Positions 5,827 through 23,312 of a stretch of DNA of 25,266 bases are shown here, piece after piece. The DNA is taken from positions 1 through 25,266 of IMG/VR virus record IMGVR_UViG_3300025154_002714, one strand, 5' to 3'. Made by a program: the position numbers and the translations under genes. The stretch is from a virus. The notes beneath the pieces were generated by a model. It made no database searches, had not been told where the DNA came from, and saw only the letters and a program-made list of their open reading frames with translations. Every line of letters starts with the position of its first letter. The stretch's first letter is position 1.

Positions 5827-7122
5827 GTGAAAATAGAATTACGCAGCATTGAAGAAATAAAACCATATGCGCATAATCCCCGCATAAACGACAAGGCTGT
5901 TGAGGCGGTTATGGCCAGTTTGAAGGAATTTGGATTTCGCCAGCCCGTTGTGGTTGATAAAGATTATATTATTATCGTTGGCCATACCCGCCACAAAGCA
6001 GCAGAAAAACTTGGGTTAGAAAAAATCCCTGTGCATGTGGCCAAAGACCTCACCGAAGCCCAAATAAGAGCATATAGAATTGCCGACAACCAAACAGCTA
6101 CTATCGCAGAATGGGATTATGAATTGCTTCCAATCGAATTAAAAGATCTGCAGGCAATGGATTTTAATCTCGAACTGCTTGGTTTCGACAGTGACCAGCT
6201 CGCTAAAATTCTTGATCCCGGCATACAGGATGGTTTGACCGACCCTGATGATGTACCGGAACCACCAGCAAAACCTATAACAAAAATCGGCGATCTTTGG
6301 ATTTTAGGTGACCACCGACTTTTATGCGGCGACAGCACGAACCGAGATGAAGTTAGCGTTCTTATGAAAGGCGACAAAGCAGGTATGATTTTCACTGACG
6401 CGCCATACAACGTCGATTATGGCTCATCAAAAAATCCACGTCATAAAATAAGAGCCATCAAAAACGATTCCATGTCCACAGACGAATGGAGCATCTTTTG
6501 CCATAAGATGTATGAAATATTCCGTGAGTTCAATACCGGCGATATTTATATGTGGGGAGCTTCTGGCCCGGAAGGAATGAGAATGAGATTGTGGCTTATT
6601 GAGATGGGCTTCCACTGGTCTGCGACAATTATCTGGAAAAAACAGCAACTGGTTTTATCCCCGGCGAAATATCAGCGGATGTATGAACCATGTTACTATG
6701 GCTGGCTCGAAAAAAGTAGTTTTGGTGACGACCGTACACAAACAGAAGTTTGGGAAATTAATCGTCCACTTAATTCGAAACTTCACCCAACAATGAAGCC
6801 GGTCGAACTGTGCATAAAAGGTATAACCAACAGTTCCGTTCCGGGTGCAATTGTTTTCGATGGCTTTCTTGGCAGTGGAAGTACACTGATTGCATGCGAG
6901 CAGATTGGGCGTAAATGCTATGGCCTGGAAATAGATCCGGCGTATTGTGACGTGATAAAAGAAAGGTGGGAAAAATTCACAGGTAGGAAAGCATACCGCG
7001 ATGGTGAATATAATTATGAAGTAGGAAGACTTGATCACATGACTCTTGCGGAGAGAAAGAAAAAGATTACCAACGACAAAACCCCAACTGATGAGGCTGG
7101 GGTTGTCTCGGAGAAAAAATAA
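5827..7122 (+). CDS. ParB-domain DNA methyltransferase fusion (beta-class, N4/N6 type)
   Basis: A 431-residue protein with GTG start and AGGAG eight bases upstream. Residues 1-130 form a ParB/Srx-like domain, with GHTRHKAA at 52-59 and RIADNQT at 85-91. A DNA amino-methyltransferase follows: motif IV region at 189-198 with TDAPYNVDYG, HPTMKPVEL near 330, and the AdoMet-binding motif I DGFLGSGST at 345-353. The order motif IV before motif I fits the beta class. The enzyme would transfer a methyl group from AdoMet to adenine-N6 or cytosine-N4, most likely protecting phage DNA; no partner endonuclease is nearby. The catalytic tetrad is DAPY instead of the usual DPPY, which may reduce activity. 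The last codons contain an inverted repeat probably used as terminator by the opposing operon. Confidence 0.9.
   Translation: MKIELRSIEEIKPYAHNPRINDKAVEAVMASLKEFGFRQPVVVDKDYIIIVGHTRHKAAEKLGLEKIPVHVAKDLTEAQIRAYRIADNQTATIAEWDYELLPIELKDLQAMDFNLELLGFDSDQLAKILDPGIQDGLTDPDDVPEPPAKPITKIGDLWILGDHRLLCGDSTNRDEVSVLMKGDKAGMIFTDAPYNVDYGSSKNPRHKIRAIKNDSMSTDEWSIFCHKMYEIFREFNTGDIYMWGASGPEGMRMRLWLIEMGFHWSATIIWKKQQLVLSPAKYQRMYEPCYYGWLEKSSFGDDRTQTEVWEINRPLNSKLHPTMKPVELCIKGITNSSVPGAIVFDGFLGSGSTLIACEQIGRKCYGLEIDPAYCDVIKERWEKFTGRKAYRDGEYNYEVGRLDHMTLAERKKKITNDKTPTDEAGVVSEKK
7080..7104 (-). terminator. Intrinsic terminator for the reverse operon, inside the methyltransferase 3' end
   Basis: AACCCCA (7080-7086) and TGGGGTT (7098-7104) form a perfect 7-bp stem with an 11-nt loop. 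Read on the - strand, the second arm runs into a TTTT tract, as in a rho-independent terminator. On the + strand no U tract follows. It lies about 30 bp past the stop of the last - strand gene. Confidence 0.6.
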
Positions 7123-7130
7123 TGTTGAAC

Positions 7131-7613
7131 CTACTTGGCAAATTCAAATTTACCACGCTCGGTCTTACGGAATCTGGATTCAGTGCCTTTTTCTTTTATC
7201 TCCCGGCTAATTGCAGAGTGAAGCGTTGCCGATGGCGTTTTGCCATCGGTTTTCCACAGACCTTTTTCCAGCATACGCTTGACCATCTCCTGACAATTGA
7301 GCGGCTGCTCTGCTTCTTGCAGAACCTTAACCGCTCCGCTCAAACCGCCAAGTCGCGTTGTGTTGTTTTGATTTTTGAAAGTGATATCCTCGGCAGGTTC
7401 AGAAGTTTTGTTTTCTTCCTGAGCCTTAGCTTTCGCTGCACGATAAACACCGGTAAGCTGATTTGCGGATTTGATAATCACGTTATTATTGGTTTTAAGA
7501 TTGTTTGCAATCCAATAGCCATCCTTGTCTTGGCTCATAATACGAACACCAATAATGTTTTTGCCAATCTTCATTTTATAAAGTCCGTTAATTTTAATTT
7601 CTGCTTTCTTCAT
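7131..7613 (-). CDS. Winged-helix (HARE-HTH-like) DNA-binding protein
   Basis: A 160-residue protein, last gene of the - strand cassette. The C-terminal 75 residues (from about LSGAVKVLQEAEQPL to the end) fit a HARE-HTH/ASXL-type winged helix: a helix with AVKVLQEA, then L(N)CQEMVKRMLEKGLW, TPSATLHSAISREI as recognition-helix region, and a final RFRKTERGKFEF wing strand. The N-terminal half is a small strand-rich region (KINGLYKMKIGKNIIGVRI). Such proteins occur as regulators or in chromatin- and restriction-linked contexts. It may regulate the cassette or the phage. AAAGGGA precedes the ATG. A long + strand frame runs opposite but looks like a shadow. Confidence 0.75.
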   Translation of the reverse strand: MKKAEIKINGLYKMKIGKNIIGVRIMSQDKDGYWIANNLKTNNNVIIKSANQLTGVYRAAKAKAQEENKTSEPAEDITFKNQNNTTRLGGLSGAVKVLQEAEQPLNCQEMVKRMLEKGLWKTDGKTPSATLHSAISREIKEKGTESRFRKTERGKFEFAK

Positions 7614-11280: not shown

Positions 11281-11955
11281 ATGATTAAACGTCATTTTGC
11301 GGTCACTAAAAAAACTGATGGTAGCCCTAACATAAGCCCGTTGAAAGAATGGTTTAGGTTAAATGAAAAAGATATTCAAGGAGCGTCAGACCTTGAGAAC
11401 CCTACTTCTCATGAGATGAGAAGATTTCTCAAAAAAAATGGATGGGAAATAGAAGAGTTGCCCGACCGTGTCTTATCGATTAGGCCCGATGAAAAGGGAG
11501 ACACATCTTACGCTGACACGCTGTTTGGTGAAGCTGCAGAGATTGAAGCCGATATTCAAGAAGATGAATTGATTGAAGCACATGAGGTTACTTTCGGGCT
11601 TGAACGAGACATGCAAGCAGCACTACGTGCAAATATTGAACAATTGGAAAGTGGTCTGCAAATAACCGATGGAGGCAAAGAGCAAGTAACAGAAGCAGGA
11701 AGAATAGATATAACTGCATCCGACGATAAAGGGCAAATAGTTGTTATTGAACTGAAAGCTGGTGATGCACCACAAACAGTAATTACGCAGATTTTGGCGT
11801 ATATGACAGCAGTTGCTGAAAAGGACAATAAACCTGTAAGAGGAATTCTTGTGGCGGGTGATTTTGATAAAAGAATTGTTTTAGCCGCAAGAGCAATTCC
11901 GAACATTAGCCTGAAAAAATATTCATTTCAGTTCACATTTGAGTCTATAAAATAG
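11281..11955 (+). CDS. NucS/DUF91-like PD-(D/E)XK nuclease domain protein
   Basis: A 224-residue protein with GGAG five bases before its ATG. The C-terminal half (about 100-224) resembles the nuclease domain of NucS/DUF91: an LE..L..NIEQLESGL helix, GRIDITASD with the first metal aspartate, then IVVIELKAGDA carrying the ExK pair, and a helix TVITQILAYM. The N-terminal 90 residues (with FLKKNGWEIEELPDRVLSIRP) are not recognised and might bind DNA. NucS-type enzymes cut mismatched or branched DNA; the fold is also common in defence nucleases. Its own promoter and downstream hairpins, between the terminase and portal genes, make it a typical moron-like insertion, perhaps acting against other phages or in DNA processing. 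The function is inferred. Confidence 0.78.
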   Translation: MIKRHFAVTKKTDGSPNISPLKEWFRLNEKDIQGASDLENPTSHEMRRFLKKNGWEIEELPDRVLSIRPDEKGDTSYADTLFGEAAEIEADIQEDELIEAHEVTFGLERDMQAALRANIEQLESGLQITDGGKEQVTEAGRIDITASDDKGQIVVIELKAGDAPQTVITQILAYMTAVAEKDNKPVRGILVAGDFDKRIVLAARAIPNISLKKYSFQFTFESIK

Positions 11956-12390: not shown

Positions 12391-13838
12391 TGTTCGGTTT
12401 TGGTAAGAAAAAAGTACAGATAAATACCTCAGCGACAGGTTCGCAGCGTACAAATGTTCGCGCAAGGTATGATGCTGCCCAAAACTCGCCTGATAACGCC
12501 CGGCACTGGGCGATGGCAGACTCGTTCAGTCCTGACCTTGCTGCAAGTCCGCAAGTTCGCGCCACACTTCGTAACCGCTCGCGATATGAGGTCGCAAATA
12601 ACAGCTATGCAAAGGGCATGGTTTTGACACTTGCAAATGATTGCGTCGGAACCGGGGCCAGATTGCAGATGCTCACCGCTGATGATGAGGCAAATAAAAC
12701 AATTGAAAGCATGTTCTCAGAATGGGCTGATGAAGTTTCACTTGCCTCAAAGCTCAGAACCGCTCGCATGGCACGCGCGGTAGATGGTGAGACATTTTGC
12801 ATAAAAACCCACAATCCCAAGCTAAGGTCACCTATAAAACTTGATTTAAAAATTATTGAGGCCGAGCAGATTACAACACCATGGCAGAAAATCTCTACCC
12901 TATCATCCAATCAGGCCGATGGTATTGAGTTTGATCAATATGGGAATCGAAGTTTGTATTATATTCTCAAGCAGCATCCATCTTCATCGGGCCAATTTCT
13001 TAATCCCGGATACGATATCGTTGCCGCTGAAAATGTAATGCATCTTTACAGAGTTGATAGAGCCGGGCAAAATCGCGGCATTCCGGAAATTACACCAGCG
13101 CTTCCGTTATTTGCTCAGCTTCGAAGATATACATTGGCAGTAATTGCGGCAGCGGAAACGGCTGCTGATTTTGCAGCGGTGCTTTATACCGATTCACCTG
13201 CTAATGGTGAAGCCGATAATGTAACACCGCTTGATACCATTAACCTAGACAAAAATATGGCAACAACGCTTCCGAATGGCTGGAAGCTTGGTCAAATCGA
13301 GGCAAATCAGCCAATTACAACGTATGCCGAATTTGTGCGGGCCTTACTTAATGAGATTGCTCGATGCATGAATATTCCGCTGGGTGTGGCTATTGGAAAT
13401 AGTTCACAATATAACTACGCCAGCGGCAGGCTTGATTATCAAATGTATGGAAAAACCATCGATGTCGATAGAAGTGATATTGAATTGACGATACTTGACA
13501 AGATTTTGATGCAGTGGCTTGATATGGCAATCCTTGTAGGACCACCTATGCCGCTTTCAATAAGGTCCATTCAGTCATATCCGCATAAATGGTTTTGGGA
13601 TGGCAGAGAACACGTCGATCCGGCGAAAGAAGCTAACGCTCAGGAGACCCGCCTGCGCAGTAATACTACAACCCTGGCAGAAGAATATGCAAAACAAGGC
13701 AAAGACTGGCGTCAGGAACTTGATCAGAGAGCGATAGAAGTCGCTTATTGCAAATCAAAAGGTCTTATGCTGGAAGAGGCGATGCCAAATAAAAATACCG
13801 CAACTGCGGTAATGGAGGATGAAGATGACCAGAAATAA
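12390..13838 (+). CDS. Phage portal protein, lambda family
   Basis: A 482-residue portal subunit. The portal is a dodecameric ring at one capsid vertex through which DNA enters and to which the tail attaches. Diagnostic for the lambda GpB-type family are the N-terminal block around residues 62-88 (YEVANNSYAKGMVLTLANDCVGTG), a WADEVSLASKL-type segment, the VMHLYRVDRAGQNRGIPEITPAL block near 210-235, and LNEIARCMNIPLGVAIGNSSQYNYAS near 318-343. AGGAAG precedes the overlapping TAATG start. Its 3' end overlaps the protease-capsid gene, whose ribosome binding site GGAGG lies inside the portal gene. Confidence 0.93.
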   Translation: MFGFGKKKVQINTSATGSQRTNVRARYDAAQNSPDNARHWAMADSFSPDLAASPQVRATLRNRSRYEVANNSYAKGMVLTLANDCVGTGARLQMLTADDEANKTIESMFSEWADEVSLASKLRTARMARAVDGETFCIKTHNPKLRSPIKLDLKIIEAEQITTPWQKISTLSSNQADGIEFDQYGNRSLYYILKQHPSSSGQFLNPGYDIVAAENVMHLYRVDRAGQNRGIPEITPALPLFAQLRRYTLAVIAAAETAADFAAVLYTDSPANGEADNVTPLDTINLDKNMATTLPNGWKLGQIEANQPITTYAEFVRALLNEIARCMNIPLGVAIGNSSQYNYASGRLDYQMYGKTIDVDRSDIELTILDKILMQWLDMAILVGPPMPLSIRSIQSYPHKWFWDGREHVDPAKEANAQETRLRSNTTTLAEEYAKQGKDWRQELDQRAIEVAYCKSKGLMLEEAMPNKNTATAVMEDEDDQK

Positions 13839-15753
13839 TGAAAAAACTATTGGTCTGAATCTAATCTGCGAAGAGATGCAGCTTAATATCGAAGCGGCAA
13901 ATGCTGAATCAAAGAATCGCACATTCAATATGGTTGCCTATACCGGCGGTCAAATGCGTGTGATGGGCTGGTACGATCCTGTTGTCGTTGATCTTTCTGG
14001 CCTGAAAGTTAATTCGCAATCTAAACCGATATTTTTCGGCCATGAGCAGGATTTGGATTCGTTGGTGGGCCAGACTGATTTGATAAAAGTTGAAGCTGGT
14101 CAATTGATCGCATCCGGAGACATCCTTGGCGAATCAGACCGCGTGAAACAAATTTTATCGCTTGCTGATAAGGGCTTTAAATGGCAGGCAAGTATCGGAG
14201 CGCGTGCAGAAAAATCAGAGCGGCTCGCAGAGGACCAGACAGCCAAAGTAAATGGCCGCCAGGTGACTGGTCCTGCGACGATTGTCCGTAAGGCAACGCT
14301 TGGTGAAATAAGTTTTGTAATGCTTGGGGCAGACGACCAAACATCGGCCCAGATAGCGGCCAATAAACAAAGTTTAAAGGAGCTTTTAAATATGGCAAAT
14401 GAAAAAGAAGAAACAAAAGAAGTTAATGCTGCTGCAACTACGGTTCCCGATATCACAGCTGAAATCAGGGCCAAGGCATCTATCGAACTGACGCGTATTG
14501 CTGAAGTTCGTAAAGCAGCTTCTGGTAATGCGGAAATTGAAGCCAAGGCAGTTGCCGAAGGCTGGGATGTCGATAAGACAAAACTGACAGTGCTTGAAGC
14601 AAATCTGGCCAAAGCCCCGGCAGTTGGGACTGAAATGCGCCTTGATGCAAAGATGATCGAGGCAGCGGCATGTTTGTCTGCCAAAGTGCCTGAGCAGACG
14701 GTGCTAAAAGTTTACGGCGAGCAGGCAACCAATCAGGCCGAAAAATACCGCGCAATCGGTATTCAGGATTTGTTCAGGCTTGCGGCAAAGGCCGAAGGAA
14801 TCGAGCTGCCATCAATGATAGCTGATAAAAACGGTTTTATTCGTGCTGCATTTTCGACAGTAAGCTTGCCAAACATTCTCAGTAATGTGGCGAATAAGAT
14901 ATTGCTTGATGCATATCTGCATCAGGAAAATTCGTGGCGGCCAATTGTCAAAGTTGCAAGTGTAAATGATTTTAAAACCCATTCGAGATACCGGCTAACA
15001 GATAATATGCAGTTTGTGAAAGTTGGCGCCGATGGTGAACTGAAGCACGGCAAACTTGGTGAGCAGGTTTACACTCAAAAAGCTGAAACAAGCGGCATCA
15101 TGTTCTCATTGAATCGCCAGACGATTATCAATGACGACATGAGTGCGTTTGCTGATATTCCAAGGATGCTCGGTATTGGCGCGGCCGATGCGATAAGCGA
15201 TGCTGTATGGGCATTGATTATGGCCGGTACGCTTTATTCGGCAACTCCAACCGGGTACAAGGCGAATTATGCAACCGGAGCGGCAACAGCATTGTCGGTT
15301 GCAGCTTTAACAGCGGCAGAACTGTTATTCCTCAATCAGCAGAAACCAAATGGTAAACCGCTTGGTCTTCGACCAAAGTATCTGGTAGTTCCAAATGCCC
15401 TGAAAGTAACAGCGCAGCTTCTGATGACGAGCATTAAATTGAACGAGGCGGCAACCGCTGGATCACCTGCTCCGGAGGATAATCCGCATGTCGGTCAATA
15501 TGAGGTGATTCCAAGCTCGTGGCTCGGCAATACTACAATCACCGGTAACAGTACCAAGGCATGGTATCTGTTCGCTGATCCTGCCAGACTTGCATCCTAT
15601 GAAGTTGCATTCCTCAATGGTGTCGAAAATCCAACCATTGAATCTGCTGATGCGGATTTCAATACTCTGGGCATGCAGTTTAGAGGTTACATCGATTTTG
15701 GTGTAGCGATCCAGGACCCAAGAGCCAGTGTAAAGATCAAGGGTGAAGTGTAA
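13825..15753 (+). CDS. Fused prohead protease and HK97-fold major capsid protein
   Basis: A 642-residue polypeptide joining two morphogenesis functions usually encoded separately. Residues about 20-185 resemble the HK97-type prohead protease: IFFGHEQ with likely catalytic His73 and GFKWQASIGA with Ser123. Residues about 190-310 are charged, Ala/Glu/Lys-rich and helical, like the scaffold delta domain removed on maturation. From about 320 to the end is an HK97-fold major capsid protein, with SWRPIVKVASVNDFKTHSRYRL and a final GMQFRGYIDFGVAIQDPRASVKI strand. ATG 13825 was chosen because GGAGG lies six bases upstream. An internal ATG at codon 190 (14392) follows AAAGGAG and could yield a protease-free capsid precursor. 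The self-cleaved capsid would form the icosahedral shell. Confidence 0.85.
   Translation: MTRNNEKTIGLNLICEEMQLNIEAANAESKNRTFNMVAYTGGQMRVMGWYDPVVVDLSGLKVNSQSKPIFFGHEQDLDSLVGQTDLIKVEAGQLIASGDILGESDRVKQILSLADKGFKWQASIGARAEKSERLAEDQTAKVNGRQVTGPATIVRKATLGEISFVMLGADDQTSAQIAANKQSLKELLNMANEKEETKEVNAAATTVPDITAEIRAKASIELTRIAEVRKAASGNAEIEAKAVAEGWDVDKTKLTVLEANLAKAPAVGTEMRLDAKMIEAAACLSAKVPEQTVLKVYGEQATNQAEKYRAIGIQDLFRLAAKAEGIELPSMIADKNGFIRAAFSTVSLPNILSNVANKILLDAYLHQENSWRPIVKVASVNDFKTHSRYRLTDNMQFVKVGADGELKHGKLGEQVYTQKAETSGIMFSLNRQTIINDDMSAFADIPRMLGIGAADAISDAVWALIMAGTLYSATPTGYKANYATGAATALSVAALTAAELLFLNQQKPNGKPLGLRPKYLVVPNALKVTAQLLMTSIKLNEAATAGSPAPEDNPHVGQYEVIPSSWLGNTTITGNSTKAWYLFADPARLASYEVAFLNGVENPTIESADADFNTLGMQFRGYIDFGVAIQDPRASVKIKGEV
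14376..14394 (+). promoter_or_regulatory. Internal ribosome binding site and start at the protease-capsid junction
   Basis: AAAGGAG (14376-14382) lies nine bases before an in-frame ATG (14392), exactly at the boundary between the protease and the scaffold/capsid part. A nested product of 453 residues would result. No other internal ATG I examined in this gene has such a site. Confidence 0.45.
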
Positions 15754-18147: not shown

Positions 18148-19047
18148 GTGGCAATCTGGTACGCACAACTTGCTGGTCAAAATTTCAACGCTCCGCAGCA
18201 GTGGAATTCTATGGCAAATGGCACAGGTGATTGGCTTGATACTGCGGTAGCAGACTATAGTAATGATACATTTTATTCGAATGGTAAAATCGTTGTTATT
18301 ACGAATAACCTGACCTGCGCAAAATTAAAGCAGGATTCTAACTTTTTCAGATTCGCCGGTACTGGTCTTATCGTAAACGCAGATATTGAGGTTGATACAA
18401 CCTATGGTAGCATTGATATACAGCCAGATTCCGATGTTACCATTTATGGAGATTTATTTGCAAATGGCACCGAAAATGCCGCGATTTGTATGTATCAAAA
18501 CAATTCCAGCTTAAATATATATGGCGATATCATATGTACTGGAGACAATTCAATTGGTGTGATGTTGACCAGTGGCGATGTTGTTGCAAATGTCTTTAAT
18601 GGCACGCTAATCGCCGGAGGTGAATATTCCGCTTGTGTATTAAGCTCAATCTATGGCGCTGCAATATCCATCAGTAATTGCACTCTTATCGGGGGACCAG
18701 GATATGGTTCGAATGCAATTCGCCTGGAAGACGGAACCTGCTCTATTGAAAATTCAACTTTAATAGCAGGAGAAGGGTTTTTCTGCGAAGCTGTAAATAG
18801 CTTAGCGTATCCCGCAGTTATCAATGCCAGCAATATGATAAGTTCGGAATATTCGATGCCTGTAGCCGGAAGTATGGTTTATATGCCGCAATCGCAAAAT
18901 TATTATGAAATATGGGCTGCGATTACGCCAGCAACTATGGCTGTTGTACCTGATGCTGTAAATATCAAAAAAGGTGTTGTCTGCGGCAGTACAGTTGGAA
19001 CGCTTACACCTGCAAGTCCATTTAGAAGGTTAAATCGGTTGGTGTAA
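18148..19047 (+). CDS. Right-handed beta-helix-like protein, possible appendage or receptor-binding protein
   Basis: A 299-residue protein with GTG start. The central region (about 55-220) shows repeated short strands ending in Gly/Asn turns (VTIYGDLFANG, LNIYGDIICTGDN, VVANVFNGTLIAGG, ISISNCTLIGG, CSIENSTLIAGEG), typical of right-handed parallel beta-helices of tail spikes and other carbohydrate-binding appendages. The C-terminus has NIKKGVVCGSTVGTLTP, a turn-rich segment also seen in tail fibre-like proteins. It could bind host surface sugars, though its position near the head-tail connector is unusual for a spike. AGGAAGG lies some 12 bases upstream of the GTG. Confidence 0.6.
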   Translation: MAIWYAQLAGQNFNAPQQWNSMANGTGDWLDTAVADYSNDTFYSNGKIVVITNNLTCAKLKQDSNFFRFAGTGLIVNADIEVDTTYGSIDIQPDSDVTIYGDLFANGTENAAICMYQNNSSLNIYGDIICTGDNSIGVMLTSGDVVANVFNGTLIAGGEYSACVLSSIYGAAISISNCTLIGGPGYGSNAIRLEDGTCSIENSTLIAGEGFFCEAVNSLAYPAVINASNMISSEYSMPVAGSMVYMPQSQNYYEIWAAITPATMAVVPDAVNIKKGVVCGSTVGTLTPASPFRRLNRLV

Positions 19048-19048
19048 T

Positions 19049-19543
19049 ATGAATAATTTACGAAATAATTCAGGTTGGCAGTTGTTACGCTCGGTTGAGG
19101 CGGTTGATAATCCGGCTCTTTCTGCAAATACTTTCGATAGTAGACCAAATTATGCGCAGAGTATTAATGCGGCGGCAATCAGGGGTTTGGAATTAATACT
19201 TGCAGCAATAGGCGATGAAAACGGCACAGTCGGCGTTCGTTTCTGGGGTGGCAGGGATATAAACTCCGGACCAGCGCAGCTTATTGCAGATATTACTTTT
19301 ACGTTGGGTACTATGGTCTGCAATAAAGACCCGCAAACTTTAGGTTCAACTGATTTAACAAGATATGCAGATACCGCGGCGATTACTTCCTACTGGCCTA
19401 CAGATATTAAAGCAGTAAATAACGGCAATAATTTAATGACAACGGTTAGTTTTGATGGGCTCGATATCGCATGGATTGCCGCGGAGGTAATTTCACTTAC
19501 CAATGTAACAAAGGCTAACATTTATTTTGGGTATTTTAGCTAA
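19049..19543 (+). CDS. Hypothetical structural protein
   Basis: A 164-residue protein lying directly after the beta-helix gene. The N-terminal part is loop-rich (NNSGWQLLRSVEAVDNPALSANTF), then come strands VGVRFWGGRD, LIADITFTLG, MTTVSFDGLD and a terminal ANIYFGYFS, suggesting a beta-sandwich. No catalytic motif is visible. The layout suggests a partner of the beta-helix protein or a decoration protein. Its stop overlaps the next start (TAATG). Confidence 0.5.
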   Translation: MNNLRNNSGWQLLRSVEAVDNPALSANTFDSRPNYAQSINAAAIRGLELILAAIGDENGTVGVRFWGGRDINSGPAQLIADITFTLGTMVCNKDPQTLGSTDLTRYADTAAITSYWPTDIKAVNNGNNLMTTVSFDGLDIAWIAAEVISLTNVTKANIYFGYFS

Positions 19544-20018: not shown

Positions 20019-20465
20019 ATGCCAGCAGCAGATTTTATTTTAGGAATAAACGCAAAGTTATACTATGGCACTAATGATGCGGAATTAACAGCAATGACCG
20101 AAGCATCAAATGTGAAAGATTTAACCGTTTCAGTTTCGGCGGGCGAGGCCGACATCAGCACACGCGCAAACAGCGGATGGCGAGCGACAGCGGCTACACT
20201 TAGGGAGTGTGAATTGTCATTTACAATGAACTGGAAACCTGGCGATGCGTTTTTCACAGCAGTTAAGACTGCAATGCTAAATAGTACTACGCTATGTCTT
20301 GCTGCATTGACGGGTGCTAAAGATGCAGAGTATAGCTCTGGCCCACATGGCAATTTTGCAATCACAAAGTTTGATCGAAAAGAATCACTCGAAGAGGCCA
20401 TTACCGTTGATGTTACCGCAAAACTTGCAAAGTATATTGCATGGGTGGATGTGGCAGGTGCATAG
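20019..20465 (+). CDS. Major tail tube protein
   Basis: A 148-residue protein with AGGAG eight bases upstream. The N-terminal LGINAKLYYG, then EASNVKDLTVSVSAGEADISTRANSGWRATAATLRECELSFTMNW, is the hallmark of TP901-1/lambda V-type tail tube proteins: a beta-sandwich whose hexamers stack into the tail tube through which DNA passes. The C-terminal strand region ITVDVTAKLAKYIAWV completes the fold. It precedes the chaperone and tape measure genes in the usual order. The following 44-bp gap carries only the next ribosome binding site. Confidence 0.88.
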   Translation: MPAADFILGINAKLYYGTNDAELTAMTEASNVKDLTVSVSAGEADISTRANSGWRATAATLRECELSFTMNWKPGDAFFTAVKTAMLNSTTLCLAALTGAKDAEYSSGPHGNFAITKFDRKESLEEAITVDVTAKLAKYIAWVDVAGA

Positions 20466-20509
20466 TAACCGGAACAAATAAGATATTTTTATTTTAGTGA
20501 GGTAAAAAG

Positions 20510-20956
20510 ATGAAGACTTTTACAGATAGTGCCGGTAGAACATGGACCATCTCTCTAACCATTGATAGCGCAAAGCGCGTTCGTGATTTATTGAGCATCA
20601 ATTTATTAGAGCCGGAGGTTGGTGATCCGCCATTAATAACAAGGCTCGGTACGGACGAATTTTTATTATGCGATGTCATATATTGTCTTATTAAACCACA
20701 GGCGGATTCATTAAGTATTTCCAGCGAGCAGTTTGGTCAGGCACTTGGTGGTGATGTAATACTTGCAGCGCAGAATGCTTTTTATGATGAGGTAATTGAT
20801 TTTTTCCAGAAACGGGGTCGAACCGACAGAGCCAAAGCGGCAGCGACTCAGCAGAAAATGATAAATCTGGCGATAGAGCAAGTGACCAAGAATCTGACTC
20901 AAATCGACCTGGGCGGGAAACTGACGGAAATATTTGGCGGACGGTCTATACAATAG
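20510..20956 (+). CDS. Tail assembly chaperone, short form (G-like)
   Basis: A 148-residue protein with GAGG seven bases before its ATG. It reads as a helical protein (RTWTISLTIDSAKRVRDLLSIN, DEFLLCDVIYCLIKPQ), the composition expected of lambda gpG-type chaperones that wrap and prepare the tape measure protein before tail tube polymerisation. A heptamer T_TTT_TTC at 20800-20806, in the correct frame, allows a fraction of ribosomes to slip into the -1 frame and make the longer form. Without slipping, translation stops at 20954-20956. Confidence 0.75.
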   Translation: MKTFTDSAGRTWTISLTIDSAKRVRDLLSINLLEPEVGDPPLITRLGTDEFLLCDVIYCLIKPQADSLSISSEQFGQALGGDVILAAQNAFYDEVIDFFQKRGRTDRAKAAATQQKMINLAIEQVTKNLTQIDLGGKLTEIFGGRSIQ

Positions 20957-21237
20957 CAGGCTTTTTAGGCGTTGACCCCGCGCCTTTGACGCTGCGTGAA
21001 CTTTGGTGGATGTCTGAAGCGATTGAACTGCGGGACAGGATGGAATGGAACAGGGTTTCGGCACTCATGGCTCTGCTATGCAATATAAATAGTGACCCGA
21101 AAAAAGGTAAAACATTCTGCCCGGCTGATTTTAATCCATATTTTAGTAAAAAGCAGAAACACCAAAACGCAATAGAAGTCAAAGACGCAGAGTCCAGAAA
21201 ATCATTTAAAGAAGCATTCGAAGGAAGAAGATTTTAA
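20510..21237 (+). CDS. Tail assembly chaperone, frameshifted long form (GT-like)
   Basis: The -1 frame is blocked by TGA at 20797-20799 and is open from 20800 to the stop at 21235-21237, so it can be entered at T_TTT_TTC 20800-20806. The fused product is 242 residues: 99 from the zero frame, then a hydrophilic linker (PETGSNRQSQSGSDSAEN and onward), then a conserved-looking T domain with GNIWRTVYTIAGFLGVDPA, TLRELWWMSEA and WNRVSALMALLCNI. There is no good independent start for that domain: the TTG at 20986 lies in the middle of it, behind IWRTVYTIAGFLG. The arrangement matches lambda G and G-T, where GT recruits tail tube subunits to the tape measure complex. The stop is followed two bases later by the tape measure start. 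Confidence 0.82.
20800..20806 (+). promoter_or_regulatory. Programmed -1 ribosomal frameshift slippery site
   Basis: T_TTT_TTC sits in the right register: zero-frame codons are GAT TTT TTC CAG, and slipping by one base gives TTT TTT then CCA. The -1 frame's nearest upstream stop (TGA 20797-20799) ends immediately before it, so this is the first possible entry point. I see no strong hairpin directly downstream. Confidence 0.8.
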
Positions 21238-21239
21238 TA

Positions 21240-23312
21240 ATGGCAAATTCAGGTTCAATAAAAGCTGGTGCTGCATACGTAGAAATCTTTGCAGATAGAA
21301 GTCCGTTAATTCGCGGACTTCGCGCAGCTGAGATAAGTGTGAAAAAATGGGGTCAATCTGTGTCAGCAATGGGCAGGCAAATGATGGGCCTTGGTACTGC
21401 TATAATTGGTCCACTCATTGGCGCTGCGAAATATTTTTCAACATTTGGAGACAATATTGCAAAGATGTCTAAAAGGACAGGTATTGGTGTTGAATCCTTA
21501 AGCGCTCTTGGCTTTGCTGCAGAACAATCTGGAAGTAATTTAGAAACAGTGGAAAAGGCAATCCGCAAAATGCAGCAGAATATTTTAGATGCGAATATAG
21601 GTTTAAAGACTGCAACTGATGTATTTGCAATGTTGGGAGTGAGTGCTGAATCTTTTGCCGGTTTAAAACCGGAAGAGCAATTTCGTCTTATGGCTGATAG
21701 ACTCAGTAAAATAGAAGACCCATCCAAACGTGCCGCGATAGCTATGAAAATATTTGGAAAAAGTGGAACCCAGTTACTGCCTATGCTTGAAAAAGGCAGT
21801 GCAGGCTTAGATGAATTAATGAAAGAAGCCAAACAGCTTGGCCTTGTTTTATCAAGTGAAGATGCTATGGCTGCGGAGGAACTTAATGATGCGTTGAATC
21901 GTATGTGGCGGACAATAAAGATGTCTTTTGCTAATATCGGCGCAGCTGTCGCTCCTATTATTACGGATTTATCAAATAAAATAGCTGTCATCGTCGGCAA
22001 AATATCAAACTGGATTAAGGAGAACAGAGGGCTGTTTCAAACAGCCCTTTTTGTCGGCGCAGGTCTGATTGCAGCAGGCGGTGCATTTGTTGTTTTTGGA
22101 AATGCTTTAATTTATGCAAGCAAAGCATTTGCCATCATAAGAACTAGTTTTACTGCGTTAAGAACAGGACTTGCGTTTTTAATGTCGCCAATTGGTTTAG
22201 TAATAGCAGCTGTTATAGCTTTGACAGGAGTATTTTTATATTTTACCGGTTACGGCAGCCAGCTTCTTAACTGGCTGGGAGGCTGTTTTAATACATTAAA
22301 ACAGGATGCGACGAATGCCATTGGTGGTATTTCAGCTGCGTTTGCAAAAGGTGACCTGGGGCTTGCTGCACGTATCGGCTGGTTATTTGTAAAAACCGAA
22401 TGGCTGCGTGCAAAGGAATGGATGCTTGGATACTGGCACAGCATCAAACTTTTTATTATGGATGTTTGGTATTCATTAGTTTATTCAATTGCCGCTGCCT
22501 GGTACGCTGCGGTTTATGGAATCGAAGTTGCCTTTGCTGAAACTGCCGCTTTTTTAGGCCAGGTTTGGACAAGGGCCGGGGCAATTTTAAAAACAGCATG
22601 GGTTGATGCGGTACAGTTTTTCAAAACTATATGGGTAGGCTTTAAAGAGTGGTGGGCTAATACGATCGATGCAGTTGCAAAGAAATTAATGCAGGTATGG
22701 ATATGGTGGAAGAAAATCACAGATTCAAGTTTTGATGCAGCAGCTGCAGAAAAACAGTTACATGATAGTTTTACACAGGATAAACAGGAACGACACGAAA
22801 ATTCTGATGCTAAAATTTTAGCAATCGATAAAGAAGCTGATGCAAATCGCAGTGCAATCGAACAGGAAAAAGAACAATCTCTACGCGAAATTGAAACCCG
22901 CAGATCAGGCAGACGCGAGCAATCAAAAGCTGAATTCGATTCGGGTATGGCCGGAGCAAACCAATACGTTGAAGATGGATTGCAGGGTATGATTGATGCA
23001 AATGCCCAAAGTTCAAAAGAAGTTGCCGATGAACTTGCCAAAACCAAAGAAGAATTCAATGCTGCCATTGCTAAGGCCAAAGAGCCTGTTGAATCCAAAG
23101 CAAAAACTCTGGTACCTGCCCAAAAAGATTGGCAGGCCCAAAGTGGTCTTACAAAGGCATCGACAACCGGAACCTTCAGTGCATTCGGTTTATCTCAGAT
23201 GGGTGCAGGCGGTGTAATGCAAAAAATTGCTGATTTTACACAGCGAACAGCCCAGGCAACTGAGGAGATCGCTGAAAATTCTGACAATGGCACAGCAGAG
23301 TTCGGAGATTAA
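21240..23312 (+). CDS. Tail length tape measure protein
   Basis: A 690-residue, mostly helical protein. The N-terminal part reads as typical tape measure: AAYVEIFADRSPLIRGLRAAE, then MGRQMMGLGTAIIGPLIGAAKYF, IAKMSKRTGIGVESLSALGFAAEQSG (about 80-100) and FGKSGTQLLPMLEKG. Two long hydrophobic segments (about 262-292 and 306-338) could insert in the host membrane during DNA ejection. The C-terminal portion (about 490-640) is charged and probably coiled coil (DKEADANRSAIEQEKEQSL). It lies in the tail tube lumen, sets its length and is ejected with the DNA. For long-tailed phages about 690 residues would imply a tail of very roughly 100 nm. An AAGGAAGAAG tract is upstream. The next gene starts 4 bp after its stop. 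Confidence 0.93.
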   Translation: MANSGSIKAGAAYVEIFADRSPLIRGLRAAEISVKKWGQSVSAMGRQMMGLGTAIIGPLIGAAKYFSTFGDNIAKMSKRTGIGVESLSALGFAAEQSGSNLETVEKAIRKMQQNILDANIGLKTATDVFAMLGVSAESFAGLKPEEQFRLMADRLSKIEDPSKRAAIAMKIFGKSGTQLLPMLEKGSAGLDELMKEAKQLGLVLSSEDAMAAEELNDALNRMWRTIKMSFANIGAAVAPIITDLSNKIAVIVGKISNWIKENRGLFQTALFVGAGLIAAGGAFVVFGNALIYASKAFAIIRTSFTALRTGLAFLMSPIGLVIAAVIALTGVFLYFTGYGSQLLNWLGGCFNTLKQDATNAIGGISAAFAKGDLGLAARIGWLFVKTEWLRAKEWMLGYWHSIKLFIMDVWYSLVYSIAAAWYAAVYGIEVAFAETAAFLGQVWTRAGAILKTAWVDAVQFFKTIWVGFKEWWANTIDAVAKKLMQVWIWWKKITDSSFDAAAAEKQLHDSFTQDKQERHENSDAKILAIDKEADANRSAIEQEKEQSLREIETRRSGRREQSKAEFDSGMAGANQYVEDGLQGMIDANAQSSKEVADELAKTKEEFNAAIAKAKEPVESKAKTLVPAQKDWQAQSGLTKASTTGTFSAFGLSQMGAGGVMQKIADFTQRTAQATEEIAENSDNGTAEFGD

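Follow-up and report, generated by a model that had tools for sequence, protein, structure and literature searches.

The question raised by this locus is whether a short tail gene of a virus and a second reading frame overlapping its end are two separate genes, or one gene with two products. The sequence analysed, called here the window, is the IMG/VR virus record IMGVR_UViG_3300025154_002714 (25,266 bases). The answer proposed, with a probability of about 0.94, is a tail assembly chaperone pair of the lambda/SPP1 type, G and GT, produced by a -1 frameshift at the heptamer T_TTT_TTC. The features on which the argument turns are the following.

20019..20465, + strand: major tail (tube) protein (phrog_1407, 1.4e-10; PF06199, 2.8e-6)
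20499-20503, + strand: GAGGT, ribosome-binding-like, ahead of the G start
20510..20956, + strand: ORF of the G-type tail assembly chaperone, frame 0, 148 aa, with relatives in viral loci and a mostly helical prediction
20789..20793, + strand: GAGGT, Shine-Dalgarno (SD)-like, 6 nt before the heptamer and identical to the GAGGT that precedes the G start
20797..20799, + strand: TGA closing the -1 frame directly upstream of the heptamer
20800..20806, + strand: slippery heptamer T_TTT_TTC, where a tandem -1 slip of two tRNA-Phe is proposed
20800..21237, + strand: -1 frame (T part of GT), with its stop at 21235-21237
20807..20956, + strand: C-terminal 49 codons of G and its stop, unshared with GT, overlapping the linker and the first part of the T domain
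about 20806-20928, + strand: GT linker, -1 frame, about 41 residues
about 20929-21234, + strand: T domain, -1 frame
21240..23312, + strand: tape measure protein (phrog_8462, 1.1e-46)

Frame 0 of the ORF at 20510-20956 reads GAT TTT TTC at 20798-20806, and the X_XXY_YYZ register of the heptamer is therefore right. The -1 frame opens directly after the TGA at 20797-20799, which makes any earlier -1 shift into T impossible, and it stays open from the heptamer to the stop at 21235-21237. On both points the reading of the first-pass annotation, which had called the site a clear programmed frameshift, is borne out. In synonymous redraws of G, TTTTTTC arises at the Asp-Phe-Phe site in 17.6% of cases, any in-phase XXXYYYZ (Y = A or T) arises in a 50-codon zone in 77%, and the -1 frame is open up to the end of G in 1.4%. 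Taken from the window by itself, the heptamer is weak evidence against chance; comparison with relatives raises it, as a predicted signal, far above that level. A GGGAAAC at about 20915 was considered as a later shift site and rejected, because a -1 slip out of frame 0 would need another phase; it occurs in just 6 of 33 aligned rows.

Pfam and PHROGs matches in the window give the order tail tube, G/T pair, tape measure, in agreement with the earlier placement of the pair just ahead of the tape measure gene, whose ATG lies 2 nt past the GT stop. In a set of 40 loci, the contigs carrying relatives are mostly labeled Planctomycetota. A few contigs (those of L073, L076, L086, L087, and L091) are labeled as Acidobacteria, Nevskiales, or Nitrospira MAGs, by mis-binning or by a wider host range. 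Several other genes of the window deserve mention in their own right. A single 644-aa ORF at 13819-15753 apparently fuses a head maturation protease with the major capsid protein (phrog_4523, 7.7e-82; PF25209, 3.2e-48), and a NucS C-terminal or PD-(D/E)XK-like nuclease (PF01939, 2.4e-10) is found at 11281-11955, between the terminase and portal genes. On the minus strand, at 7131-7613, a HARE-HTH domain protein (PF05066, 1.5e-11) is encoded by a gene that faces the ParB-N / N6-N4 methylase gene at 5827-7122. Two ORFs of 299 and 164 aa at 18148-19543, between head and tail genes, have no Pfam or PHROGs match at E<=0.01, and Rfam at its gathering thresholds gives no match in the window.

Judged from the sequence, a virus of planctomycetes very probably makes two forms of a tail-building helper protein by a -1 slip. 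In the model that we infer for the slippage, its frequency, and the chaperone roles, most ribosomes would read G through to its own stop (148 aa), while a minority, with P-site TTT and A-site TTC, would slip back one base and continue in the -1 frame, giving GT with a predicted length of 242 aa. With 49 codons of G still to come after the shift, the two products would have only their first 99 residues in common; in GT these would be followed by a linker of about 41 residues and then by the T domain. If lambda is a guide, G may coat the tape measure protein and GT may recruit tail tube subunits, neither of them staying in the finished tail.

The properties of the two predicted proteins are consistent with these roles to different degrees. 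Sequence and profile searches with G returned no convincing family match, and its function is therefore assigned from position, architecture, and the accompanying T. Its predicted structure is mostly helical (mean pLDDT 88.1); residues 100-148, the part absent from GT, are conserved and include predicted helices at 105-131 and 134-142, with confidence dropping after about residue 130. Against solved structures, a Foldseek search with the G model gave no match at E<=0.001 and listed no known chaperone, and the best VIA match (Z 5.2) was to a designed protein; an absent fold match is no evidence of a new fold. The linker of GT is probably disordered, and its residues are weakly constrained (identity 0.56 in the -1 frame vs. 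0.54 in the +1 frame). Translation of the -1 frame predicts linker peptides that include ASDQESDSNR and QSQSGSDSAENDK, and at the predicted junction DFF is followed by PETGSNR. The T domain had been described as conserved-looking, and its alignment contains invariant residues (Trp46, Gly57, Pro60, Leu65, Arg66, and others). PF06223 (Phage_tail_T), a family named for lambda T, is matched by 27 of 30 T members at E<=0.1, the best at 2.7e-6; the T of the window reaches E 0.032 and 15.1 bits, under the curated cut-off of 25.9 bits. On this basis the domain looks like a remote relative of Phage_tail_T. In profile comparison to lambda, neither G nor T aligns to its counterpart, and the T model (pLDDT 57.7) is too poor for a fold search.

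Conservation of the heptamer in relatives had been proposed as a check of the frameshift. The relatives of G and those of T were looked for separately, with peptide patterns that never span the heptamer, and a viral search found a G relative encoded in 32 viral loci. The first set comprises 251 records (250 loci plus the window, which is also L001); both G and T were present in 247 of these, L055, L090, L212, and L218 being left out, and the 247 collapse to 133 distinct G-T sequences. From the viral searches the best 80 of 192, at least 434, 237, and 205 relatives were taken, so that distant relatives are under-sampled. Relative to G, T occupies the -1 frame in all but one of the distinct pairs (132/133), and no pair (0/133) has the two fused in frame; the lone exception, L076, has T in the +1 frame and a broken G frame. 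The heptamer TTTTTTC is in register in 113 of the 133, and the -1 frame is open from heptamer to T in 111. Frameshifting at the heptamer is thus the best reading of the G/T pair, as the earlier annotation had supposed.

The heptamer is conserved beyond what the encoded residues require of their codons. Two consecutive Phe residues occur in this stretch in the same number of pairs (113/133), the other 20 being without them, and T_TTT_TTC_C stands at the first Phe-Phe in 112 of these 113 loci, including 70 of 70 loci above 58% GC. For reference, TTT makes up 175 of 1485 Phe codons (12%) in the other long ORFs of 57 heptamer loci of 62-75% GC; in 20 heptamer loci of 35-45% GC, TTC is used for 250 of 968 Phe codons, and the second codon of the heptamer is TTC in these loci by definition of the set. 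The heptamer is thus kept in loci spanning both GC classes. Among relatives with TTTTTTC, L138 reads TTTTCTC, with one base changed, and L064 and L072 have the heptamer followed by a -1 stop before T; in these copies, as in L367 below, the complete GT would not be readable in the ordinary way.

The point at which the -1 frame comes under constraint was located with 83 heptamer loci and 50 loci of the derived type described below, dereplicated at 88% identity. In the 30 codons upstream of the site, -1-frame stops are present in 50 of the 83 heptamer loci, and in the 30 codons from the site on they are present in none (0/83); L064, whose -1 stop lies 8-9 codons past the heptamer, is outside the 83, so that the last figure does not deny it. 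Within the G/T overlap, none of the 20 loci whose G is as long as that of the window has a -1 stop, vs. 19.3 of 20 on average when synonymous codons are redrawn. The agreement of -1-frame residues, taken as an excess over the expectation from synonymous redraws, ranges from -0.00 to 0.03 per six-codon block upstream, rises to 0.29 in the first block from the site, and is 0.02-0.07 thereafter. Within this first block of six codons, the two for Phe follow from how the loci were selected; the third, for Pro, does not, and there the -1-frame agreement is 1.00 vs. 0.44 expected.

Eighteen of the first 133 distinct loci, all from genome contigs, are of a type without the heptamer. Two further viral scans, with two heptamer-less loci as queries, yielded 133 records, of which 127 have both G and T and collapse to 90 distinct pairs; 89 of these 90 have T in the -1 frame, and 12 have the heptamer. 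Taken together, the two sets contain 92 distinct loci with the pattern NNT TTY TSC CC: 46 have T_TTT_TCC, 40 T_TTC_TGC, four T_TTC_TCC, and two T_TTT_TGC. Three loci of the further scans are unplaced: L273 (T_TTT_TCA) and L284 (T_TTT_TCG), both before TGG and outside the 92, and L305, which was mis-anchored. This derived clade keeps only the P-site half of the heptamer (NNT_TTY, then TCC or TGC). A T-ending codon before the Phe was part of the selection rule for the 92; in the further scans, where the rule did not demand it, T is still the last base of this codon in 86 of 87 anchored loci. Codon agreement in the clade is 3.16, 4.41, and 2.96 times expectation, the last two values belonging to the downstream codons AGC and AGG, with near relatives included in the calculation. 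Individual loci such as L288, L094, and L323 carry T_TTC_TGC, T_TTT_TGC, or T_TTT_TCC in place of the heptamer, and many are capable of forming a downstream stem; L288, for instance, has T_TTC_TGC with the stem, and L087 has T_TTT_TCC and lacks the 8-bp stem.

Among the 50 dereplicated derived loci, 24 have a -1 stop before the site and none has one after it; L367, whose -1 stop comes later, is an exception within the clade. At codons 3 to 6, which are free of the selection rule (two of the first three codons are fixed by it), the observed and expected -1 agreements are 0.85/0.26, 0.96/0.31, 0.84/0.37, and 0.92/0.44. The excess -1 agreement is 0.03 to 0.14 per block upstream, and from the site on it is 0.46 and then 0.19, so the jump at the site is less clean than in the heptamer loci. 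Start codons (ATG/GTG/TTG) between the site and the T domain are absent in 79 of the 92 derived loci and present in 13. Since the stops cease at the site and the -1 agreement is highest from the Phe codon on, the derived clade most likely changes frame at the same Phe codon as the heptamer loci. The first-pass annotation had considered that loss of the heptamer in relatives keeping both frames would refute the frameshift. Exactly such a loss is found, literally, in the 92 distinct derived loci; because the frame still changes at the same Phe codon there, that test is judged too strict, and the frameshift reading survives it. In these loci the P-site tRNA-Phe would re-pair in the -1 frame, while the A-site tRNA on TCC or TGC would mispair. 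In the first tree, the heptamer-less type sits amid heptamer lineages and at least two changes are needed; the tree is rooted at its midpoint, so the direction, loss of the heptamer, is a presumed one. One heptamer locus, L264, falls inside the derived clade.

A stem may accompany this change. An 8-bp stem, mostly GCCCGAGG with CCTCGGGC, begins 4 nt past the A-site codon and is possible in 38 of 40 T_TTC_TGC loci, 4/4 T_TTC_TCC, and 2/2 T_TTT_TGC, vs. 5/46 T_TTT_TCC and 0/120 heptamer loci (T_TTT_TTC). Against the 38/40 observed in T_TTC_TGC, synonymous redrawing of the 3' arm gives an expectation of 12% (maximum 30% in 300 draws), and redrawing of both arms gives 0.7%. This contrast is inflated by relatedness, almost all T_TTC types that bear the stem being grouped in a single part of the tree. 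Of the cells of the stem, 84.9% are paired, vs. at most 47.7% in slid versions. RNAalifold on 49 loci of mixed type did not predict the hairpin, and six single-sequence z-scores range from +0.98 to -1.85. Double-sided changes are seen in two cells, both of L323, and sliding the 3' arm by 1 to 3 columns gives as many; that the 5' arm codes for conserved residues in both frames also counts against a hairpin. The structural support is thus modest, and the stem may be read as a stimulator compensating for a weaker slippery site. That the chemistry of the frameshift changed in place, from the tandem slip on T_TTT_TTC to a single P-site tRNA-Phe slip aided by an 8-bp hairpin, is a tentative proposal, to which we would give slightly less than an even chance; on this view, stem formation becomes more frequent as the slippery sequence weakens.

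The arrangement could also have arisen without any ribosomal slip. If the frames were two plain overlapping genes, T would begin at the TTG at 20986 or at another weak start, and the heptamer would be incidental. That TTG is present and usable by a gene caller; it is the first ATG, GTG, or TTG in the -1 frame of the window, 62 codons in. Against its use, it encodes residue 63 of the frame, inside the conserved T domain and behind the invariant Trp46, Gly57, and Pro60. Between the site and the T domain, no -1-frame ATG exists in any of the 113 heptamer loci, and ATG, GTG, and TTG are all absent in 111 of them, which upholds the earlier claim that T has no start of its own. Nor would an independent start explain why stops vanish from the -1 frame exactly where the heptamer begins (0/83 vs. 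50/83 upstream). Separate genes are accordingly highly improbable. An annotation starting at 20986 would cut the beginning of T, as had been warned; the loss is real and amounts to 62 codons, not to the 60 residues given.

Transcriptional slippage, in which RNA polymerase would add a base in the T6 run and ribosomes would not slip at all, is very unlikely as well, if marginally less so than two separate genes. Its appeal lies in the T6 run that forms the core of the site and in the T5C4 run of many derived loci, which is near the T5C5 motif of a review (PMC5009743). Efficient bacterial slippage, however, is attributed in the excerpted text of that review to runs of 9 A or T (PMC5009743), and T5C5 is described there as losing one C, which leads to the +1 frame and not to -1; slippage on T5C4 in the derived clade was rejected for this wrong direction. 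Moreover, 40 of the 92 derived loci have T_TTC_TGC, with no T run longer than three, and 113 of 133 pairs retain the ribosomal register. As for a decayed or mis-assembled single gene, functionless after an indel, isolated broken copies do exist among the relatives (L076, L064, L072, and L367). The same -1 relation recurs in 132 of 133 distinct pairs of the first set and in 89 of 90 of the second, with protein conserved in both frames, which is not what decay would leave; this account is the least probable of all.

A -1 frameshift at T_TTT_TTC being the preferred reading, the signals that may stimulate it can be considered. In the wider family an SD-like GAGGA about 9 nt upstream of the heptamer appears to be favored; it is absent in the window, whose GAGGT lies 3 nt closer to the site. 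Of 113 loci, 89 have an SD-like four-letter word within the 20 nt that precede the heptamer, vs. 244 of 1472 other 20-nt pieces of G. This excess is due in part to a conserved Glu-Glu, and the codon choice seems to be selected too: Glu at position -14 is GAG in 49 of 52 dereplicated loci, vs. 321 of 500 Glu codons elsewhere in these genes (p 1.6e-6). Another residue stands at -14 in 34 of 113 heptamer loci, including the low-GC sub-clade of the window, to which the preference would not extend. Past the site, no stable structure was found in the window (z -0.05 to -0.45), and no consensus structure was predicted for 44 aligned heptamer loci, so that a conserved downstream hairpin was rejected for this group. 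The 60-nt segment just past the site in 45 sampled loci has a mean z of -1.04, vs. -0.10 to -0.79 in ten other segments (one of them overlapping), an excess too small to claim an element. Downstream structure bears on stimulation only, and a G/GT site need not carry one. The dnaX gene of E. coli combines A_AAA_AAG with an SD-like sequence about 10 nt upstream and a downstream stem. The GAGGA favored in the wider family resembles the first of these two stimulators, and the window lacks both an SD-like sequence at the family position and a stable stem.

The feature is of a known kind, already present in other phages. As proposed for the window, lambda makes G/GT by shifting -1 in the gene that precedes the tape measure gene, and its T domain is read in the shifted frame; its heptamer is GGGAAAG, in register and with 5 G residues left after it, whereas the window has TTTTTTC with 49. 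A U-run slippery site is also used in the tail assembly gene pair E/E' of phage P2, where it reads TTTTTTG; P2 has a contractile tail, and the A-site codon differs from that of the window. Frameshifting in P2 is mentioned in the excerpted review (PMC5009743). The nearest likeness in site and layout is to SPP1, a Bacillus phage, for which an excerpt of the published description gives a UUUUUUC and a putative -1 shift inside the G-type gene (gp17.5/gp17.5*), just ahead of the tape measure gene 18 (PMC6316719). A long unshared C-terminus of G is common to both, 112 of 173 residues being shared in SPP1 (PMC6316719) and 99 of 148 in the window; the hosts differ, and the likeness is to SPP1 as described in that excerpt. 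In the excerpted PRFect study (PMC10274946), XXXYYYZ is absent from most of the annotated frameshift overlaps in its data and looser motifs are listed, so that heptamer-less sites as such are not new. Searches of open-licence PMC, a weak guide to print, gave no paper among the matches listed on frameshifting in planctomycete phages, and none on TTTTTTC in tail genes, SPP1 having surfaced as UUUUUUC.

In annotation, G and T of these viruses need joining; annotated apart, they leave GT unrecorded and T without the beginning of its domain. Searching 50,697 phage records by tblastn with both frame products gave no match at E<=1, and the record of G/GT pairs thus gains a largely uncultured branch. 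The heptamer-less sister clade is the part of interest to specialists in frameshifting, as a natural experiment in how a programmed frameshift survives the loss of its slippery heptamer.
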